DNA of 64,000 nt from Dryococelus australis (Eukaryota > Arthropoda > Insecta > Phasmatodea > Phasmatidae). The notes beneath the pieces were generated by a model. The model was given only the letters and a program-made list of their open reading frames with translations, did not search any database and was not told the origin of the DNA. The stretch lies in contig CM056995.1 of assembly GCA_029891345.1 (NCBI GenBank), positions 215,206,547 to 215,270,546 on the forward strand. Reading direction: 5' to 3'. Of the stretch, positions 963-60,239 are shown piece after piece (position 1 is the first letter of the stretch; each line of letters begins with the position of its first letter). The position numbers and the translations under genes are program-made.

Positions 963-2070
963 ACAATTTAACAAAGAGTAAAAAATCTTATGGAAAAAAC
1001 TAAATCACCACCCACAAAACCTGTTTTTGAAAAGTGATATTAATAGATGTTTTAATACTGCAAACCATATGAAACATACACTGAAATCCAGTTATTACTG
1101 TAATAGGTTACAAATAAACATTAGTAACCCCAAGAAAACATGAAAAATAATAAATGAGGTAATTCATAATCAACGTGATGTCAAACTACAAGCAGCCATA
1201 ATTTTGCACAGAAATGGTAATCCCATATCAGTTGGAAGAGATAGCAAATAAGTTTAACTTGTTCTTTGCAAACATAGGCAAAGAATTAGTAGATAACCTA
1301 TCCTTCCAGATCCAGGGTCCAATACAACCAATTCTCCTACACCAATTAACTCAGTTTGATATCTTACTTCAGTTACTACGCTTTAAGTGGGAAAAAAAAA
1401 CATTACTGGTCTTAAAAACAAGAATAATAAAACAAGTGATGGAATCACAAATATTATACAAAAGAAATTAAATGGTACCCTTAGTCCAGCTATCGTGCAA
1501 TTAATTAATCATTCATTCTCTATGGGGGAATTCCCAGATAAATGTAAACTTGCTAGGGCAATACCTGTATACAAGGATAGGTCTAGGACTGAGCCGTATA
1601 ACTATAGGCCAATTTCAATACTGCCTATTATTTCTAAAATTTTCTAGAAATGTGCCAAATTTAGGTTAAAACAATTTTTGAACAAAAAGCAATATTTCTT
1701 TCCATATCAGTATGGGTTTATGGAAAAATCGTCCACCACAAATGCTACTATGGACATAATAACAAAATTGGAAAGTGTATTAGATGAGGGATGATTGAAG
1801 GGGCAATCTTTATAGAGCTAAAAAAAAACTTTTGATACTGTACATCACAGCTTACTATTACAAAAACTAGAAGAGGCTGCAGTCAGAGGAGAGGCCCACA
1901 AGTGGTTCTTTAGCTATTTACATAAGCGAAAACAGTATGTTTCAGTTAATGTGGATTATAGTAAGGAGTTAGAAGTGACTTATGGCGTGCCCCAAGGTTC
2001 AGTCCTAGGACCGCTATTATTTTTGGTGTATATCAATGACCTAGGAGCGTTGCCACTAAAGGGCCAGCTA
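963..2070 (+). pseudogene. LINE family B (jockey-like) reverse transcriptase, 5' segment, broken
   Basis: Pieces of one reverse transcriptase can be read in changing frames. A linker with NPKK and KIINEV lies at about 1120-1160, and IANKFNLFFANIGKELVDNL at about 1232-1290. NYRPISILPIISKIF is at 1600-1645, a decayed FDTVHHSLLLQKLEEAAVRG at 1830-1890, and GVPQGSVLGPLLFLVYINDL at 1984-2043. At least four stops and two frameshifts interrupt it. The block order matches the fingers and palm of jockey-type LINEs. It ends abruptly at 2070, where family A copy 2 begins on the other strand; the continuation resumes at 4453. It starts right after the tail of family A copy 1. Confidence 0.85.
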
Positions 2071-2104
2071 ATACATACATACATACGCTCACAATTAGAC
2101 TACC

Positions 2105-3899
2105 GCTCGGTGGCGAGCTCTCTCACCTCTCCTTCACCCAACCAACTCCTTTTCAATTCCCTTCCTGAACTTACCAACCCCTCTCACAGATACCAATTCC
2201 TCCCTCAACACATTCCACTCCCTCAGACCTCACAAGCATGGACTACCTACCCCGCTCCATTCTCCTCCACACCCTATGAAGCTTCTCACTATTGTTTCCT
2301 CTTTCTCTAAACAACCCCTTACTTTGCTTGCAGTGTAACCCTCCCCATCCTCCCTCTTCATTCACTACCCTGTACATCCTGACTAGCCGTTCAACTTTCC
2401 TCCTGTCCCTCAATGAGCTCCACCCCAATTCTTTCATCATCTTCCTCATTCCATTTCTCGCACCTCCACCTCCGGGTCCCATACTGCTGCAGCATATTCT
2501 AACATTGGCCGTACCATTGTGCCGTACGCCTTCTCCTTCACCTCACAGCTGACTCCCTTCAGCACCCTTCCCAGCATACCCAGAGCTCTTCTTCCCTTTG
2601 CAACCACCCTCTCTACCTGTTTTTACAATCTGAGGTCTCCCTGCAGTACAATCCCTAAATACTTATATTCTGCTGCTTTTTCTATCTCTTGTCCCTCCCA
2701 TCTGTGCATGTCCCTGCTTATCACCTTCTTCCTTGTAAACCTCACTACCTTAGATTTTCTTACATTTATCTACATTTTATTTTTCCTCGTCCACAACCAT
2801 ATCTTGTCAATGTCCGCCTGCAAATTTCTGCCCCTCCCCCCCCCCCCCTTCACTACCACTTCAGAATAACAACACAATCATCTGCAATCAATCTTATTTT
2901 TCCCCTAATCCCCAAACCCATGTCATTTACCATTATGGTAAATAACAAAGGACCCAGTACGCTTCCCTGTAGTACCCCTGACGGAACCTCCTCTTCCTCC
3001 TATATTGTCTTCCCCTCCCCCCCACTTTCACCCTCTGCCTTCGCCCCCTGAGGAAGTCCCCTATCCATTTCACTACCCTCCTGTCCAGTATCAGCGCCTC
3101 CACTTTCCTCATCAATGTCCCATGGGGCACCTTATCAAATGCCTTCTCAAATTCTATGAACCAGGTATCCACCTGCTTCCCCTCATCAACTACCTGCACC
3201 AGATCCTCTAATAACCCAGCCAGCATAGTCTCTAATGAGTATCCCCTCGTGAAACCATGCTGGGACTCCTCCAACCAATTCCTATTGTTTATAACCCTAA
3301 CCACATACTGCACCACCAGCCTCTCCATTACTTTTCCTGTACTTGATGTGAGACTCACAGGTCTGTAGCTACCAGGCCTCCCCCTATCCTCTCTCTGCTT
3401 GTGTGTAGGTACCACCATAGCATCCTTCCAATCTTGTGGTAACTTACTCTCTCGTAAGGAATTTTTAAACATCACCTCTAAACATTTCACCAACTCCTTG
3501 CCACCAAACTTTAGTGCTATGTTTCCTATCCCATCTGGACCCCCTGCCTTACTGCTCTTCAAACCCCTAATTACCTTATCTATCTCCCACTCCCTCATAT
3601 TAAACTTACTAAACACCCCCCGAACCCTATTTGCCCCCTAATTCCATTCCTCCTTTGCCTCAAACACTTGACAAGTACTGCCCTTGCAGCATCTCCGAAT
3701 TTTCTTGGTCATTTTTCGCATGCCTAACATCCCTTCCTGTTAGCAGAGGGATCCCTTCCTGCCCTCCCCTTAACCTCCTAACATACCTAAACAATTTCCC
3801 CCATTCCTTGCCTTTTCCTTCTTCCACCATGTTCCCCAGAAATACATTCTTTGTCTTTTTGATCTTCCTTTCAAGCTCCGTACCCATTTGTTTCATCAT
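2105..3899 (-). pseudogene. LINE A copy 2: linker and reverse transcriptase, frameshifted
   Basis: The linker reads from 3899 to 3660, then the reverse transcriptase from 3616. Visible blocks are SYRPVSLTSSTGKVMERLVV, QHGFTRGYSLETM and FIEFEKAFDKVPH (first catalytic aspartate replaced within the FxxFxKAFD block by glutamate in FEK, with the later D kept). Frames then change, and GVLQGSVLGPLLFTIM follows. The catalytic box reads IADD at 2878-2889, where copy 1 has FADD. A poly(C) run at about 2838-2850 and several stops break the remainder, but the C-terminal blocks matching copy 1 (GWSSL, DRRKV, RMYRVVNEEGGWGGLHCK) are recognisable. Copy 2 is therefore inactive although nearly colinear with copy 1. 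Confidence 0.85.
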
Positions 3900-8081: not shown

Positions 8082-8216
8082 CTCATTTATGCACATCATA
8101 CCTCTTCAAGTGCGAAATGTGTGCCTTCATAAACACCGTATTGTTTTTAATACACATTAAATTCACTGTAGTCACACCTAAACATTTGTTAATTCTGAAA
8201 GGGTCTAGGTATTTAG
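8082..8216 (-). pseudogene. Gypsy-1 integrase C-terminal domain, separated by a DNA transposon
   Basis: The - strand frame reads YLDPFRINK, then a short strand-rich segment with TTVNLM, and ends HISHLKRYDV before a TGA near 8082. The P-K-Y-L-x-P-F-x-I-x-K pattern and terminal H-x-S-x-L-K are typical of the SH3-like end of Gypsy integrases. The frame joins across the DNA transposon to codons at 11638-11660 when one copy of the 4-bp target duplication is left out. This ties it to the integrase core 3.5 kb to the right. Confidence 0.8.
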
Positions 8217-8244
8217 GGGTGAATATCAGAATAGGCTGCATTTT
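8213..8244 (+). repeat. TE-A left TSD (8213-8216) and left terminal inverted repeat
   Basis: TTAG is followed by a 28-bp end beginning GGGTGAATATCAG. It pairs with the right end at 11610-11637, the two differing only at the sixth and seventh bases. Confidence 0.88.
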
Positions 8245-8412
8245 CATGAACTGAATTCTGAAAATGTAAAACTTGTTTTAAAAATCTGAAAAAAATTAAC
8301 TTGATCAACCAAGTGTTCATAAGTAAGTCTTAGCGGTGGTACAGCTAAAAACCCAACATTTAATTTTGTTTCACATTTTGAAATTTTGAGGACCCACGCC
8401 AAAGATGCAGTG

Positions 8413-8426
8413 TCCATGCTAAAGAC
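8413..8426 (+). repeat. TE-A subterminal motif, left copy
   Basis: TCCATGCTAAAGAC occurs about 170 bp inside the left end. It is the same motif as those on the right arm, and candidate binding site for the transposase. Confidence 0.6.
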
Positions 8427-8592
8427 TATTTGTGTTAGAAACCAGAATATGATAATAAAAAAAAAGATAATTGCAGTTGTCTCATACAAAAGAAACTTTA
8501 TTATTGAAATGAATATGCATTAAAAATTACTTCACAACAATTAAGCAGAAAACAAATTACAACTGGAAATCGAGAAAAGTAAAGGTTGCTGC

Positions 8593-10777
8593 TCAAGAAC
8601 TGTATGGTACAGGATTGCCAATCTTTTTCACCACATCATAAAAAGGATACTTCAATTGGTCGTTCTGTGCTGGCCATTTGTATTTCCCTCCAACTGTAGG
8701 GTGCATTACCATGACTTCAGTGTCATCAAAATGTACCTACCCAGTCTCCAATTTCATAGAAGACTCTTGAGCCTTTAGAGGCTTCAGTACAATCTGAAAA
8801 ATTATTTTACCAAATAATAAAACATTCTTAACTTAAGTTTGTATTTGTTATAAAAAATTTTGTAAGCAGTTTGTTATTGGATTTTTAAAACAATAATGAG
8901 AACGTTAATAATGAAACCCCTTACCTACACTTTTCAAGGGACCAGTAAAAAATATTGTAAAATGCAGGAAGTTTATAATGTAAAAACTGTGAATAGGACC
9001 AAAGAAAAAAAGTGTAAATCACGGGGTGTAAGTAAGGGGTTTCACGTATATTAAAAAATTTTATGAAAAATCTAATAAATTAGCTTCAACATTGGATAAA
9101 AGTAAATGGCTATGTTTATATACTCAAATAATAATTGATCTATTACCTTGTTCCGATAATGAAGTTGGAATCTGCATTCCCAGATGGTAGTGCTTGCATA
9201 CTGTTTCTGTTGAACATTCAAAGCACCCTAATTCTCGGAACATTAAATGACCACTTGTCTTTATCCAGCAGACTTGATGGAATTTCACAGACCCTGCAAA
9301 AAATATAATATGTAGTTCCCTTATCAACCTTTTATTCAATGTCCGTTACAGTTTCCTCACTGACAGCTTCCATGTGTACACCAGATATGTTCGCCATCAA
9401 TGAACTTAACAGAACCTCAAAGCTTGAAATGTCATTGCCTTCTGCAACAAGGCGATCAGGAGTACGTTTTAGAAGACCTCCTGTGCCATCTGGGGCCTCC
9501 TTACCATGACCAGATTCAGAATAATTCCAAGTAATTTTTTCAGTGCCTGGAAATATGCTAGGAATGTAAGATTTGATTATTGCATACATGGTTTTATTAC
9601 GGTATTGTGTACTTGGACTGTCTGAATAGAAATGTAGGTTTCTAACATCTGGAAATCCAGCTAAATACTTCTGTATTATTGGAGACATATGTGCAACTAT
9701 GGCAAAGGTGTTGTGAGACGCTGCCTTTTGGATAAAGTGCAAAATGACTCTTTTATGCCACCTTCTGCATAAACTACACCAGTGTGAAGGGTGACCTGTT
9801 CCATTGAAGCCCTGAAGTAAACAGACCGTGCATCAGCAGAATATTTGCACATATAATTATACGAGAAATCCATGTGGAATAGGAGATCTGTACACTGTAA
9901 ATTCTTCATTAGTTTTGACATGACTGAATACTGATGTTTGACAAACTTGTGTTGCATGAAACCCACTATACTACTTTCAAACATGTCCACCAAATCACCT
10001 ACATTTAAATTACATCATCTTTCACTGTCCTCTTTACTACAATCTCTAATTTTGTCTTGTTACTTATAACTTACTCTTTCTTAGTTATCCACTGCTTTAC
10101 AGCCACTTGCTGGTGATAGTCGGTCTTTGTAACACACACTTTTATATTTACAAAGAGCACATGCCCTCCTCTGTAACAATCTTCTGTTTCTTCCTCACAC
10201 GTCAACATTTTAACTGACTTCTCTTCATCATTCATGTCAACAATTTTCAACAAATGAATTTCCTGCACTATCAATTTAAAGTTCTCATGTTTTACACAAA
10301 GACGTGCGTCTCGATCACTCACCTTTGGTGCCACTATCCAAAAGGGGCGCAGTCTACAAAAGGCACGATAGCTTATTAGGAAACTCTGAATGCGCTGGCT
10401 GGAACTTGAGGGGGAGATTTCTGATAGTGTATGTCAAATATCTTTTTTGCTTCTGTATAACCTTTCCTTGAAATTACGTCTTTCTTCCCAGGATATAAAC
10501 ACTAGTTGTCATCCTGTTCCAGAAAAGTTGTTACCACATTTTGAATGTACTCTATTTCATTTCATTCTTTCATAGCATAAGTTCTTGGATCGCTTTGTGT
10601 CTTTCACCAACTTAACTTTTCCCGACTCTTTTGCCTGTAAGTAGATTTCATGTTTTTTTCTTTCAGTGCTCTTAATTTTTATGGATCATTTTTCATATTT
10701 TCACACCTCCTTTTCTCACACTCTCTCTTCCGCTTCAACCTTTCTTCATTGCTTAAAGGCCCCTAGGTTCTTGCCAT
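8593..10777 (-). pseudogene. TE-A transposase-like gene, four or more exons, disabled
   Basis: Exon 1 starts at ATG 10777 with a basic region (EERLKRKRECEKRRCENMK, then KEKKHEIYLQAKESGKVKL). It continues through about 10074 with LRPFWIVAPKVSDRD and CVKHEN. The next part (about 10006-9332) has MDFSYNY, YMCKYSADARSVYF, QVTLHTGVVY, then after a frameshift near 9740 FYSDSPSTQYRNK and WNYSESGHGKEAPDGTGG. Exon 9293-9147 (acceptor TTTTTTGCAG, donor GTAATA) has VKFHQVC and RELGCF. The last exon 8793-8593 (acceptor AATTTTTCAG) ends DVVKKIGNPVPYSS. In-frame stops lie in exon 1 (at least two), near 10360, before the exon at 9293, and in the last exon. I recognise the family as a repeated, uncharacterised group in arthropod and cnidarian genomes. 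A nuclease role is inferred from the conserved acidic residues and from its position inside the TIRs. Confidence 0.75.
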
Positions 10778-10838
10778 TGTCTGCAACAATGATAAAATAC
10801 AGGTAAGTCAGAAATGCAGTGATATATAAATCTGTCTG

Positions 10839-11452
10839 TAGCATGGATTCTTAGTCTTTAGCATGGTTGCAAAAAATCCATGCTAAAGATACTTGAGTGT
10901 GTCCATGCTATGGAGAAAAGTTAGGTTAACTACAGTTATATTCCATATGTAAAGACCACTCAGTATGAAACTTTTCATGAAGTTTATTCCCTCACTTGGC
11001 TTTTAAATTGTTGTTAACATTTTCATTTATCATTAATAACTTAGCCAGAACTCAATCCATACTAAAGACATACAATTTTCCTACTCACCTGAAAAATACA
11101 TTCACAATAGGTAAACACGTTTTTCTTATAACTTTCCCCTTCAATTTGAAGCCAGTGCTGTCAACCTAGAGTAAAGGTAAATAAATTTTTACTCCAGAAA
11201 AAAGTGTAAAACTAAATATTTTTCATTTAGAGACTCTTAAGCACTGTCCATGCTAAAGACATGAAACTTTGGGGACAGTTTTTCAAACACATGTAACACA
11301 ATTTTGAACAAATTAAAAAAAATATGTATATGACCAAATTAGCCCTCAATAAATATTTTTATTTGGCTGGCCTTAGTTCATTATTACTTATTAAAATAAC
11401 CACTTGAAATATACATTTATCTGTAAAAGTGTGGTCGGGAACATCCATGCTA
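10839..11452. repeat. TE-A subterminal motif cluster, right arm (seven copies)
   Basis: Full or partial copies of TCCATGCTAAAGAC lie at 10839-10847 (inverted), 10854-10866 (inverted), 10877-10889, 10901-10910, 11056-11069 (one mismatch), 11247-11260 (perfect) and 11444-11452. Repeated subterminal motifs in both orientations are known binding sites in several DNA transposon groups. They lie upstream of the - strand gene start at 10777, so they could also act on its promoter. Confidence 0.65.
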
Positions 11453-11609
11453 CTGGACATTTTATGGAATTTAGAAATTATGGCATCCATATAGTACAAT
11501 AAAATAATTTAATAACCATTAAAAATCATTCACAATAATCTGTGCAACAATTAAAAAAAAAATTATGCTTGTAAATTTGTTAATTCTTAGAAAAATTGCA
11601 TTGGGATGC

Positions 11610-11641
11610 AAAATGCAGCCTATTCTGATAACCACCCTTAG
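11610..11641 (-). repeat. TE-A right terminal inverted repeat and right TSD (11638-11641)
   Basis: Read on the - strand the end starts GGGTGGTTATCAG and is the partner of the left end. TTAG follows at 11638-11641 on the + strand. The flanking sequence belongs to the Gypsy integrase. Confidence 0.88.
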
Positions 11642-12246: not shown

Positions 12247-12932
12247 ACCTGGGAGCCTGCCTTTATCTAACTGAGCCAACACTCCTGCTTTGCCAACACA
12301 AGGTGATGAAACACATCTTGCAACAGGCGGTCCCGGTCCACGATAGTTAGGGGTGGGGAAACTGAAGGTATATTCGGAATGTTAAGCAAGGGGTGGGAAA
12401 GGGCTTAACCAAAGAAAGGAAGGGAAGGACCACCTATTGACTCATGATAGATGCTATTGAACCCCAAACTAATAAAATCCCACTCCTTATCCCATTGGGT
12501 ATGATCCTTATTTAGTAAATCATTAGACAAACCTTCCAGTTCTTGTTAAAAGTTCCACCTGGTTTCCCTTGGAGAAATAATGGGCTAGATGTTATATGCT
12601 TCACTGCCCAACGGAAACACACCTCTATAGGCACACCAAATATTTTTCACAAAACCCTCACAATGGTAGGACCTTTCACATGACATAATGGGAGCAAAAT
12701 GACAAACTTCGAGAATGTATCTAACAATATCAGGATGCAAACATTTCCTTTCCGCGACCACACTAGGGGCCCGAAAATATTTAAATGTACCATACTCCAC
12801 GGCGCTAGGTATACGGGGTACAACCTGAACCACATTGGTAGTCTGTTCTTGCTTACATTGTTGGCATGAGTCGCAGGATCTGACCAACTCAGTCACATCC
12901 TTTTTAGGCTCGGAAAAGCAAAATGGCTCAAA

Positions 12933-13006
12933 AATGTATTAAGGGTTGTATTTATCCCCAGATGTCCTCAATGTATTAAGGGTTGTATTTATCCCCAGAT
13001 GTCCTC
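12933..13006 (+). repeat. Perfect 37-bp tandem duplication in Gypsy-1 integrase
   Basis: 12933-12969 and 12970-13006 are identical and directly adjacent. 37 is not a multiple of three, so the duplication shifts the integrase frame. The identity indicates it is recent compared with the decay around it. Confidence 0.9.
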
Positions 13007-28191: not shown

Positions 28192-29116
28192 CAGAGTGCT
28201 CGGAAATTCCCCTTACAAATTCCTAGAACTTGTAGAGGAGACTGAGTAGATGATCTTTTGAATAGAAACCCATTTCCGGAAACATACAGTTTCCATACTA
28301 CAACCATTTCAAATCAGGTATTTTACACATGACCGTCCAGAATAGCTGCCCACACATTGATAGAAATTCTGTGCTGGAATCCGTGGACATGCATGGTATT
28401 AGGGCTTTTGTCTGCCCAGACATGGCTGTTTCGAGACTCGAGAACACTGTTCCTTGTGAATGTACATTCATCTGTGAACAGAACATGATGTGGGAACAGT
28501 CTCATTGGTACAGCTGGGAGCACACCCATTGCACACGTAATTATTTGCGTACTCGCTGATGGCCTCTGTTCAACGTGATGCAGTACGGCCTCTTCCAATT
28601 CAGGAGAGCTGCGTCTCTTTGGAGCACCACAGCCGTTCCTGTCGGCGGTGAAGGTACCTTGTTCTTAGCGCCGTTGCGTAATTGTGGTAAAAAGGGTATG
28701 CAGTTGTGTCGCACGTTGTGGATAACTCTGTAGATATGGCCGACGAGCTGCTTTTCCATTATCTTCAGCTGTGCCATACACAAGTATCACGTCTGTGTAT
28801 TCCATAAACGTGTACTCGACCATATTAATCTGAGACACAATGGCGCATGAATGGAGCTCGAGGCAGGATAGATGTCGTGTGCCATCAGGTGATTGTCTGA
28901 AGTAATGTACTACCACCTGGTTGCATACCAACATAGGCACATCCGAGACATTGCTCTTTCCCTCAGTGGATGTGGACAACTGATACACCTGATTTGAAAT
29001 GGTTGTAGCATGGAAACAGTACATTTCTGGACATGGGTTTGTATTCAAAAGATAGTCTACTTAGTCCCCTCTAAAAGTCCTAGGCGTTTGTAAGGGGAAT
29101 TTCCGAGCATGCTCTA
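28192..29116 (-). mobile_element. Tc1/mariner-type element, 925 bp, internally deleted (Mar-1)
   Basis: Inverted repeats of about 130 bp lie at 28192-28320 and 28986-29116. They share GCTCGGAAATTCCCCTTACA and a further block ending in CAACCATTTCAAATCAGGT, split by scattered differences. TA at 28190-28191 and 29117-29118 is the expected target duplication. The transposase remnant inside is on the - strand. Confidence 0.85.
28323..28823 (-). pseudogene. Mar-1 transposase remnant, catalytic domain truncated
   Basis: A helix-turn-helix start (MVEYTFMEYTDVILVYGTAE, then NGKAARRPYLQSYPQR) runs from 28823. After a frameshift near 28665 the frame 28598-28323 has EEAVLHHVEQRPSAS and TCAMGV. It jumps to HHVLFTDECTFTRNSV, which carries the first catalytic aspartate, and to FQHRISINVWAAILDG. 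In full-length relatives about 50 residues separate the second and third of these blocks, and the second and third catalytic residues follow. Both are missing because the right part has been deleted up to the inverted repeat. Confidence 0.8.
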
Positions 29117-58463: not shown

Positions 58464-59842
58464 GACTTTGCTGTGAATGAAAAGTGTAATTGGCTATTCC
58501 AGGCTCTAAACGTTGAAGGTAAAAGTCCTGTGGACAATCAGGAAAAACATACCAATTTCACACTACCCCCAATAATAAAATAAGGGTGCAGGAACATATT
58601 CAGTCATTTAAGGAGAATCATTATACCGGCAAGCCAGTTAAATATTGTAATGCTGGTTTGAATGTAAAGATATTGTACCAGTTGTTTAAAGCACTGTACC
58701 ATGATACTAAAGTCAGCTACAGCTTTTATTTCAACTATTTCGAAGATGACTTCAACGTGTCATTTGGACATCCACAAATAAATTGTTGTGTATGTGAAGA
58801 ACTAGAAGTGAAGCTGGAGTCCTTTCTTTTTATGCTGCAAAACATGTTTATGCTATTGAGCTAGTTATCCATACATGACGAAGTAAGAAATTTTACAATG
58901 CCCTGTAAGAAAAGATAGATTGAAAAAATGGACACAACAAGAATATTCTCTCAATCGCTTGTGATTATATGCAGAAAATATAAATGCCAAAATTTCCTGT
59001 TCAGGAAAATTTTTTTATTTACTGCAAAGAACTGTTAATGTCTTCTGTATCCACAACATAAAAACAAACAATGCAGTAATTTACCTTTATCGTGAGGGTC
59101 AGGCAAAGAAAGGGCCTTATGAAGTGTTCCTCTTTTCTCCATTACTCGAGTAGCATCCCAGACCAGTATGACGAAATTCATTTATTGTCAGACAACTCTT
59201 TTGGTCAGAATAAAAATTTAACATTGTCAAAATTTCTTTTGAGTCTATCAGACTCTTAACAGATTAAAAAAATAGAGCATTTACCATTAATAGGTCATGC
59301 TTCTTAGATTGTGGTAAGGATTTTGCCATTATCAAAATATGTATTCGTAGACATGATAAAATTTACAAAACATCATCTCACTGAAATGACAATTTGTAGT
59401 AGTAATTCTCTTAAATTTAATGTTGTGGAAGTGAATCCATTAAGTGAAGTAATTTATAATTTTAGAAACGGATGGCAAAATTATTATAAAAGAAAACCTA
59501 TATTATTTGAAAATGCAAGTATTAAGGAGTATGAAATAAAGTATACTTTGCAATAAGCAGCTTTCATAATTTTATCTATGTAGCAAGACCATTCATTAAT
59601 GGATTAACTGAATGAACACACATTCATTCTTTGCCAAAACTCACACACTGCCATTAAACTTATTAAGTTCAGTGGCTTATTTTGAAGCAAAAACATCACT
59701 GAAGGAAGAAAAAGTCAAGGACTTGAATAATATTCTCTCATACATTGATGAAAATTGCAGACAAATGTATGAAGATATCACAAATTATGACAAATTATGT
59801 TCTGATGTGCCCAGAAAAGGTCATGCATTTAGAAGACACTAG
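58464..59842 (+). pseudogene. Transposase-like protein, SD-x4-Q family (copy 1)
   Basis: Blocks in order on the + strand: DNQEKHTN (58532), VQEHIQSFKENHYTG and LNVKILYQLFKAL (58585-58700), FNVSFGHPQINCCVCE (58754-58801), SKKFYNAL-like and CDYMQKI with FPVQENFF (58880-59010), and VFCIHNIKTNNAV with YREGQAKKGPYEV (about 59040-59130). DEIHLLSDNSFGQNKN (about 59170-59217) is next, then KKIEHLPLIGHASLDCGKDF and RRHDKIY (about 59268-59365). A conserved C-terminal part (59612-59842) has LPLNLLSSVAYFE and LNNILSYIDENCRQMYEDI. I recognise the layout as an uncharacterised repeated family in arthropod genomes. Stops and frameshifts lie between blocks. Catalytic function is inferred only. Confidence 0.7.
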
Positions 59843-60239
59843 ATTTTAACAATGTTATTGATTGTTAAATGTGTATCCTGTATGACATTTATGTCATTTT
59901 GTCCATTTTCTTAAGGAAAGTAGGATGTTTGCTTTTGATTTCCTCACAGACATTAAGTAATTTCATTCCAGAACATTGTTTTTATATTGTATGCTAGAGT
60001 TTTTTTTTCCCAGATATACTGCAACATTAAGAAATGGGGTTTTTCCTTTAGACTCGTTATTTGTAATAAGAGTGGTAGTCCCGAGTTTAAAAAAATGCCC
60101 TATTTTACATCCTAATTAATGGAATTAAAATGTTTTGAATATGAACTTTGAGACTGGAATAAATGTTTAAGGATGATAAAAACTTTCTAGGCTTTGTTCA
60201 GTTGCAAGAAAAATGTTTTCTCTCTCCTGTAAAATATTT
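59843..60239. other. Spacer between two tail-to-tail transposase-like genes
   Basis: AT-rich, with no motif and no visible inverted repeats. The two genes of the family end toward each other here. Confidence 0.45.

Follow-up and report, generated by a model that had tools for sequence, protein, structure and literature searches.

At positions 8217..11637 of a 64,000-nt stretch of the Dryococelus australis genome (assembly GCA_029891345.1, contig CM056995.1, 215,206,547 to 215,270,546; the whole stretch is called the window below) lies what we regard, with a probability of about 0.92, as a dead cut-and-paste DNA transposon, most likely of the DDD/E (Asp-Asp-Asp/Glu) type and, judged by its target sites, probably Sola2-like. 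General hallmarks of DDD/E cut-and-paste elements were found in it and its relatives: terminal inverted repeats (TIRs), a target duplication of fixed length (4 bp) and, by prediction, an RNase H fold in which three acidic residues are conserved.

The borders, the inverted ends pairing at 26 of 28 positions (pattern GGGTG..TTTT) and the TTAG on both sides were all found as proposed in an initial annotation made from the window alone. Taken by itself the window TIR is suggestive rather than decisive, because one of 25 dinucleotide shuffles also attained 26 matches in its best inverted 28-mer (20–23 in the other 24), and to speak of a "proven insertion site" was too strong for this single locus. 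The ends are judged real because the 28-bp end, searched with up to 3 mismatches, recurred 12 times in the 3.4-Gb genome compared to 0 for a reversed control, including at the termini of homologous copies on other chromosomes. Dispersed copies with common ends ruled out a chance inverted repeat and bore out the proposal of a TIR transposon.

A DNA search of the host genome with the element (40 of 167 candidates scored) gave at least 52 matches, with copies on C1, C2, C3, C6 and C10 whose long pieces were 82–92% identical. Four copies of this window sublineage had both ends, flanked by TTAG/TTAG, ATCA/ATCA, TTCA/ATCA and ACGC/ACTG, while L039, L040 and L042 showed one end only. A second sublineage was recognized through L047, a locus whose 477-aa (amino acid) open frame spans the C-terminal two thirds of the protein and shares about 37% identity with the family protein P0001 (832 aa); its N-terminal part has one stop and one frame change. 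Used as a query (38 of 525 candidates scored), L047 gave at least 74 matches, including 10 other long copies with common borders. Outward reading from the L047-type copies produced a common left end, GGGTCATTTGCAAATAACTTGT, and a matching right end; both ends were comparable in nine of the ten, C7 being without the left end and C3 having a damaged right end. GGGT termini and 4-bp duplications were common to both sublineages. In L047 itself the left end was cut off by a nested repeat, and a correctly oriented exact TIR was located 10.6 kb from the break, with TACC on both sides. Inner inverted repeats of L047, considered as its ends, proved to be subterminal motifs. The interrupting repeat represents another family (L047:1-1831; C10 from about 102258600 to 102269033) and ends exactly where it interrupts L047; three further genomic copies of it stop at the same base (query 1831) and are followed by unrelated sequence. 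Four loci that were candidate empty sites for L047 (L069–L072) turned out to have the end of this repeat in common.

The duplication length was compared in 13 copies (four of the window sublineage and nine L047-type): a perfect duplication was present at 4 bp in 5/13, at 2 bp in 2/13 and at 3 or 5–8 bp in none, which ruled out a duplication of 2, 3 or 5–8 bp. Five more copies, chosen solely for an exact TIR at both ends, included two with a perfect duplication, one matching at 3/4 and two at 2/4 bases. With the flanks taken by one fixed rule in all 19 copies with both ends readable, from both sublineages, eight duplications were perfect, 15 matched at 3 or more of the 4 bases and 60 of 76 bases matched, while none of 20000 re-pairings of the flanks attained 15/19 or 60/76. 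The 4-bp length proposed for the window copy therefore recurs in other copies of both sublineages. Its sequence varied, and TTAG is not family-specific: the perfect duplications were TTAG and ATCA in the window sublineage (0/2 AWWT) and ATAT, AAAT (twice), ATTT, AGTT and TACC in the L047 sublineage (4/6 AWWT).

The gene of the window copy was once real and the copy is now dead, as follows from its stops, frameshifts and deletion together with one supported intron. P0001 matched the window by tblastn in eight pieces over three frames, with in-frame stops. The stretch corresponding to P0001 codons of about 61 to 263 is absent, and L036–L040 have 603–634 nt at about this place; the DNA alignment breaks at query 2382/2384 in the copies and at 2384/2428 in L037. 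The element had been called complete, which cannot be maintained for a copy that is internally deleted by about 620 nt, frameshifted and interrupted by stops. The gene had also been described as spliced. This applies to one intron (9146-8794), for which L036, L037 and L038 retain both a similar donor and a similar acceptor, and L039 a similar donor but no acceptor at the expected place. It does not apply to several introns: the supposed introns near 10075-9999 and 9332-9299 were rejected as a stop and frameshifts, because the frames of the relatives continue there.

The conserved acidic blocks were located on the minus strand as annotated and their codons were confirmed; the family motif set reads DFSENY, SDxPSxQYRNK and ExGHGKGxxDGVG. 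The earlier proposal of a D-D-(D/E) RNase H-like transposase was supported by prediction: in the AlphaFold model of a relative (predicted local distance difference test score, pLDDT, 86.5) a Cys cluster and a C-terminal SH3/Tudor-like domain accompany an RNase H core of the retroviral-integrase/mariner type, in which D-D-D (and E) are conserved.

With the read-through protein as a query, phmmer found 121 proteins at E<=0.001 among 3928 candidates, of which 120 were listed. The best match, a protein of 832 aa with 46% identity over 90% of the query, was LOC134537058 from the stick insect Bacillus rossius. An organism was named for 28 of the 120 listed relatives: 26 insects, one fish and one Wolbachia assembly, the latter protein (P0017) being taken as host contamination; the others come from contigs without an organism name. 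The contigs of many of these nameless relatives measure a few kb, roughly one element length, which is expected if repeats collapse in read assemblies. Two further queries, for each of which scoring was limited to about 7990 candidates with most words in common, brought named proteins from fish, lancelet, mollusc and butterfly. The source names were uncharacterized, hypothetical or unnamed, except for one protein named after an unrelated domain and one "vertnin" (P0145, Elysia marginata), in which the part 297-439 matches the family by profile (hhalign probability 98%); the latter name may derive from an OTU-like C-terminal part, with which the family piece may be fused.

No Pfam match above cut-off covered the family region in 14 proteins, nor was any found in four window pieces; six weak matches below cut-off fell over family regions or a window piece, and the only match above cut-off, Baculo_FP_2nd in P0057, lies in an unrelated N-terminal stretch. 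The PDB contained no meaningful relative by sequence (best E 5.6). Viral contigs gave three pattern matches with no relative among them, and a viral fold library gave three matches at E<=0.001 (an unnamed protein, an ostreid herpesvirus open reading frame (ORF) and a SprT-like protein), all with low template modeling scores (TM-scores). A literature search, made mostly by superfamily names, found no description of the protein family, which is no proof that it is unpublished. Because of the ends, the target duplications and the predicted fold, the family proteins stored as uncharacterized or hypothetical in insects, fish, lancelet and molluscs are very likely transposases. Identifying them as such would correct gene annotation, and the family offers a place to seek intact, usable elements and domesticated genes.

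Both sublineages carry arrays of a short subterminal repeat. The word TCCATGCTAAAGA occurs at six window sites with up to 1 mismatch, all inside the element, and at up to 2 mismatches one site lies outside. In gene orientation five of the six lie at 379, 570, 749 (reverse), 771 and 791 (forward), and the sixth lies 208 from the 3' end; a weaker site is at 724. In L047 the repeated word is a different one, CAGGAGAATGACA, found at 174, 370, 569, 721 (reverse), 746 and 766 (forward), with one more near the break on the 3' side. Between the two elements, five of the six 5' sites correspond in orientation and to within 25 bp (28 of 100000 random placements were as good) and four to within 10 bp (29 of 100000), with placements drawn in the first 900 bp, sites treated as independently placed and one element representing each sublineage; distant shared ancestry of the entire 5' region may account for part of the agreement. 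A further family member, L046, has the window word with like spacing (345 and 45 versus 370 and 42). Genome-wide, TGTCCATGCTAAWGA gave 22 matches compared to 6 for the reversed control, with 8/22 in the copies read; the enrichment of this longer word is modest, and the word is not exclusive to the copies. The repeats are most readily understood as putative transposase binding sites, promoter elements being the alternative, and the arrays lend themselves to testing whether the layout of binding sites can outlast their sequence.

Full-length members encode one transposase of about 750–900 aa, in which an N-terminal region that is basic and helical and a conserved Cys cluster precede a predicted RNase H-fold (DDD/E) core, followed in P0001 and the other members read by the putative SH3/Tudor-like domain. 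By the mechanism that we infer, this protein would bind the inverted ends with their GGGT termini, probably also the subterminal repeats, excise the element and join it at a new site with a 4-bp stagger, leaving a 4-bp, mostly A/T-rich target duplication.

Several observations weigh against the identification of a cut-and-paste transposon. All long window-lineage copies read were decayed, and a search of the host genome with P0001 (54 of 5061 first-look candidates scored) gave at least 62 matches, with stops in 56 of the 62 listed. In four of the 19 copies no more than 2 of the 4 target bases match (L038, L085 and L089 at 2, C3 at 1). A TIR search in L046 yielded no readable ends or duplication; the expectation of the initial annotation that other family members share such ends and the duplication held for two sublineages. 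Foldseek alone found nothing in the PDB with E below 0.001, and the VIA-align rows that include the C-terminal domain had a root-mean-square deviation of 11–15, so that the domain arrangement is not rigidly matched. Finally, the third catalytic acid may be D636, which we prefer, or alternatively E627.

Table 1. Features of the transposon copy in the window (positions counted from the first nucleotide of the window)
Feature	Position	Strand	Basis or remark
Transposon copy, 3421 bp	8217..11637		gene on minus strand; inverted ends and copies elsewhere in the genome
Left target-site duplication, TTAG	8213..8216		sequence; 4-bp length backed by other copies
Right target-site duplication, TTAG	11638..11641		sequence
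TIR, element 3' end in gene orientation	8217..8244	+	genome-wide 28-bp matches
TIR, element 5' end in gene orientation	11610..11637	-	genome-wide 28-bp matches
Degenerate transposase gene	8566..10777	-	several stops and frameshifts; ATG 10777-10775; translation, tblastn of P0001
Junction of internal deletion of about 620 nt	10598..10600	-	N-terminal half of the protein; sequence present in L036-L040
Single supported intron, GT-AG, 353 nt	8794..9146	-	
Subterminal repeat TCCATGCTAAAGA near element 3' end	8413..8425	+	
Cluster of four subterminal repeats	10835..10914		10835-10847 (minus), 10855-10867 (minus), 10877-10889 (plus), 10902-10914 (plus, 2 mismatches)
Subterminal repeat	11056..11068	+	1 mismatch
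Subterminal repeat	11247..11259	+	
Predicted first catalytic Asp (D510 of P0001), in MDFSYNY	9868..9870	-	conservation and model
Predicted second catalytic Asp (D592 of P0001), in YSDSPSTQYRNK	9620..9622	-	conservation and model
Conserved Glu (E627 of P0001), in WNYSESGHGK	9515..9517	-	alternative third acid
Preferred third acidic residue (D636 of P0001), in GHGKEAPDG	9488..9490	-	

Other features were noted elsewhere in the window. A decayed piece of a second uncharacterised insect protein family lies at 58523-60200 (plus strand, three frames), with the blocks SDNSFGQNKN and, further on, CFLDCGKDF; a 113-aa piece of it had no Pfam match. These blocks resemble the second-D and GHGKG..D blocks of the window element's family, and the piece may represent a sister transposase family. 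Reverse transcriptase fragments (RVT_1) at 1822-2307 (plus, E 4e-8) and 2936-3637 (minus, E 2e-13) are probably remains of non-LTR (long terminal repeat) retroelements, while a weak sub-cut-off match to Integrase_H2C2 at 12588-12938 (minus, E 0.0037) is possibly an LTR-element fragment. An ORF at 28323-28664 (minus) with FTDECTFTRNSV, which presumably resembles a Tc1/mariner-type transposase, had no Pfam match at E<=0.01.

As to classification, we lean towards the view that the family is already known within the Sola superfamily, most probably as Sola2, with only its name missing from the protein databases. Sola had been suggested initially and, with its 4-bp A/T-rich duplications, is still the most plausible known superfamily, judged by its target sites. 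The dictyostelid Sola2 elements, in the part of PMC3627910 that covers them, have 4-bp AT-rich AWWT duplications (ATAT, AAAT and ATTT match several in the L047 sublineage), short TIRs and a single large putative transposase, of 888 aa in one family versus 832 aa in P0001, and no Pfam family covers the protein studied here. On the other hand, their TIRs of 12–21 bp are shorter than the about 22–28 bp found here, and neither TTAG and ATCA of the window sublineage nor TACC of L047 is AWWT.

A separate, undescribed superfamily of DDD/E transposons seems less likely to us: the family has a motif set of its own, source names that are uninformative in all but two cases and the lack of Pfam and PDB relatives described above, but a missing name in protein databases does not mean absence from Repbase or Dfam, and A/T-rich duplications of 4 bp would fit Sola2. 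Slightly less likely again is the fuller version, a separate animal superfamily of cut-and-paste elements that end in GGGT, duplicate 4 bp and encode an integrase-like D-D-D transposase tailed by an SH3/Tudor-like domain. This transposase would recognise an asymmetric subterminal array that keeps its layout between sublineages although the bound word differs, with binding specificity and sites co-evolving, and the decayed family at 58.5–60 kb may be a sister of such a superfamily. That the locus is merely a host gene with chance inverted repeats can be dismissed, despite the shuffle with 26 of 28 matches, given that multiple copies, dispersed in the genome, share these ends and have 4-bp duplications, and given the decay of the long copies read.

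Among other known systems, Tc1/mariner (Mos1, SETMAR) was ruled out by the duplication length of 4 bp rather than the 2-bp TA that is general there according to PMC10045372. The TTAA duplication and CC..GG termini of piggyBac differ from those found here, which excluded it too. Kolobok shares a 4-bp duplication and termini of the type 5'-RR..YY-3' (GG..CC here). However, the passages on Kolobok in PMC9587614 give TTAA as the specific target of the classic form, together with a C/DxxH motif, whereas the targets here vary, with no TTAA among the 19 copies, which excluded classic Kolobok. Since the same passages give duplications of 3–5 bp for the KolobokP lineage, the target alone does not exclude every Kolobok. 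At the spot of the C/DxxH motif of Kolobok, P, hAT, MuDR and Dada the family reads E627-x-x-H630, with neither C nor D and with both residues highly conserved. Ginger1, Ginger2 and IS481EU also have 4-bp duplications, but the parts of PMC2836005 and PMC10045372 that treat them give TGTNR termini for Ginger1/2, TGT for IS481EU and CCGG/CCGT targets for Ginger1, while the termini here are GGGT and the family has no integrase Pfam match; Ginger1/2 were therefore rejected. The likeness to these elements and to retroviral integrases lies in the predicted architecture: an integrase-like fold, a Cys cluster before the core and an SH3-like C-terminal domain.
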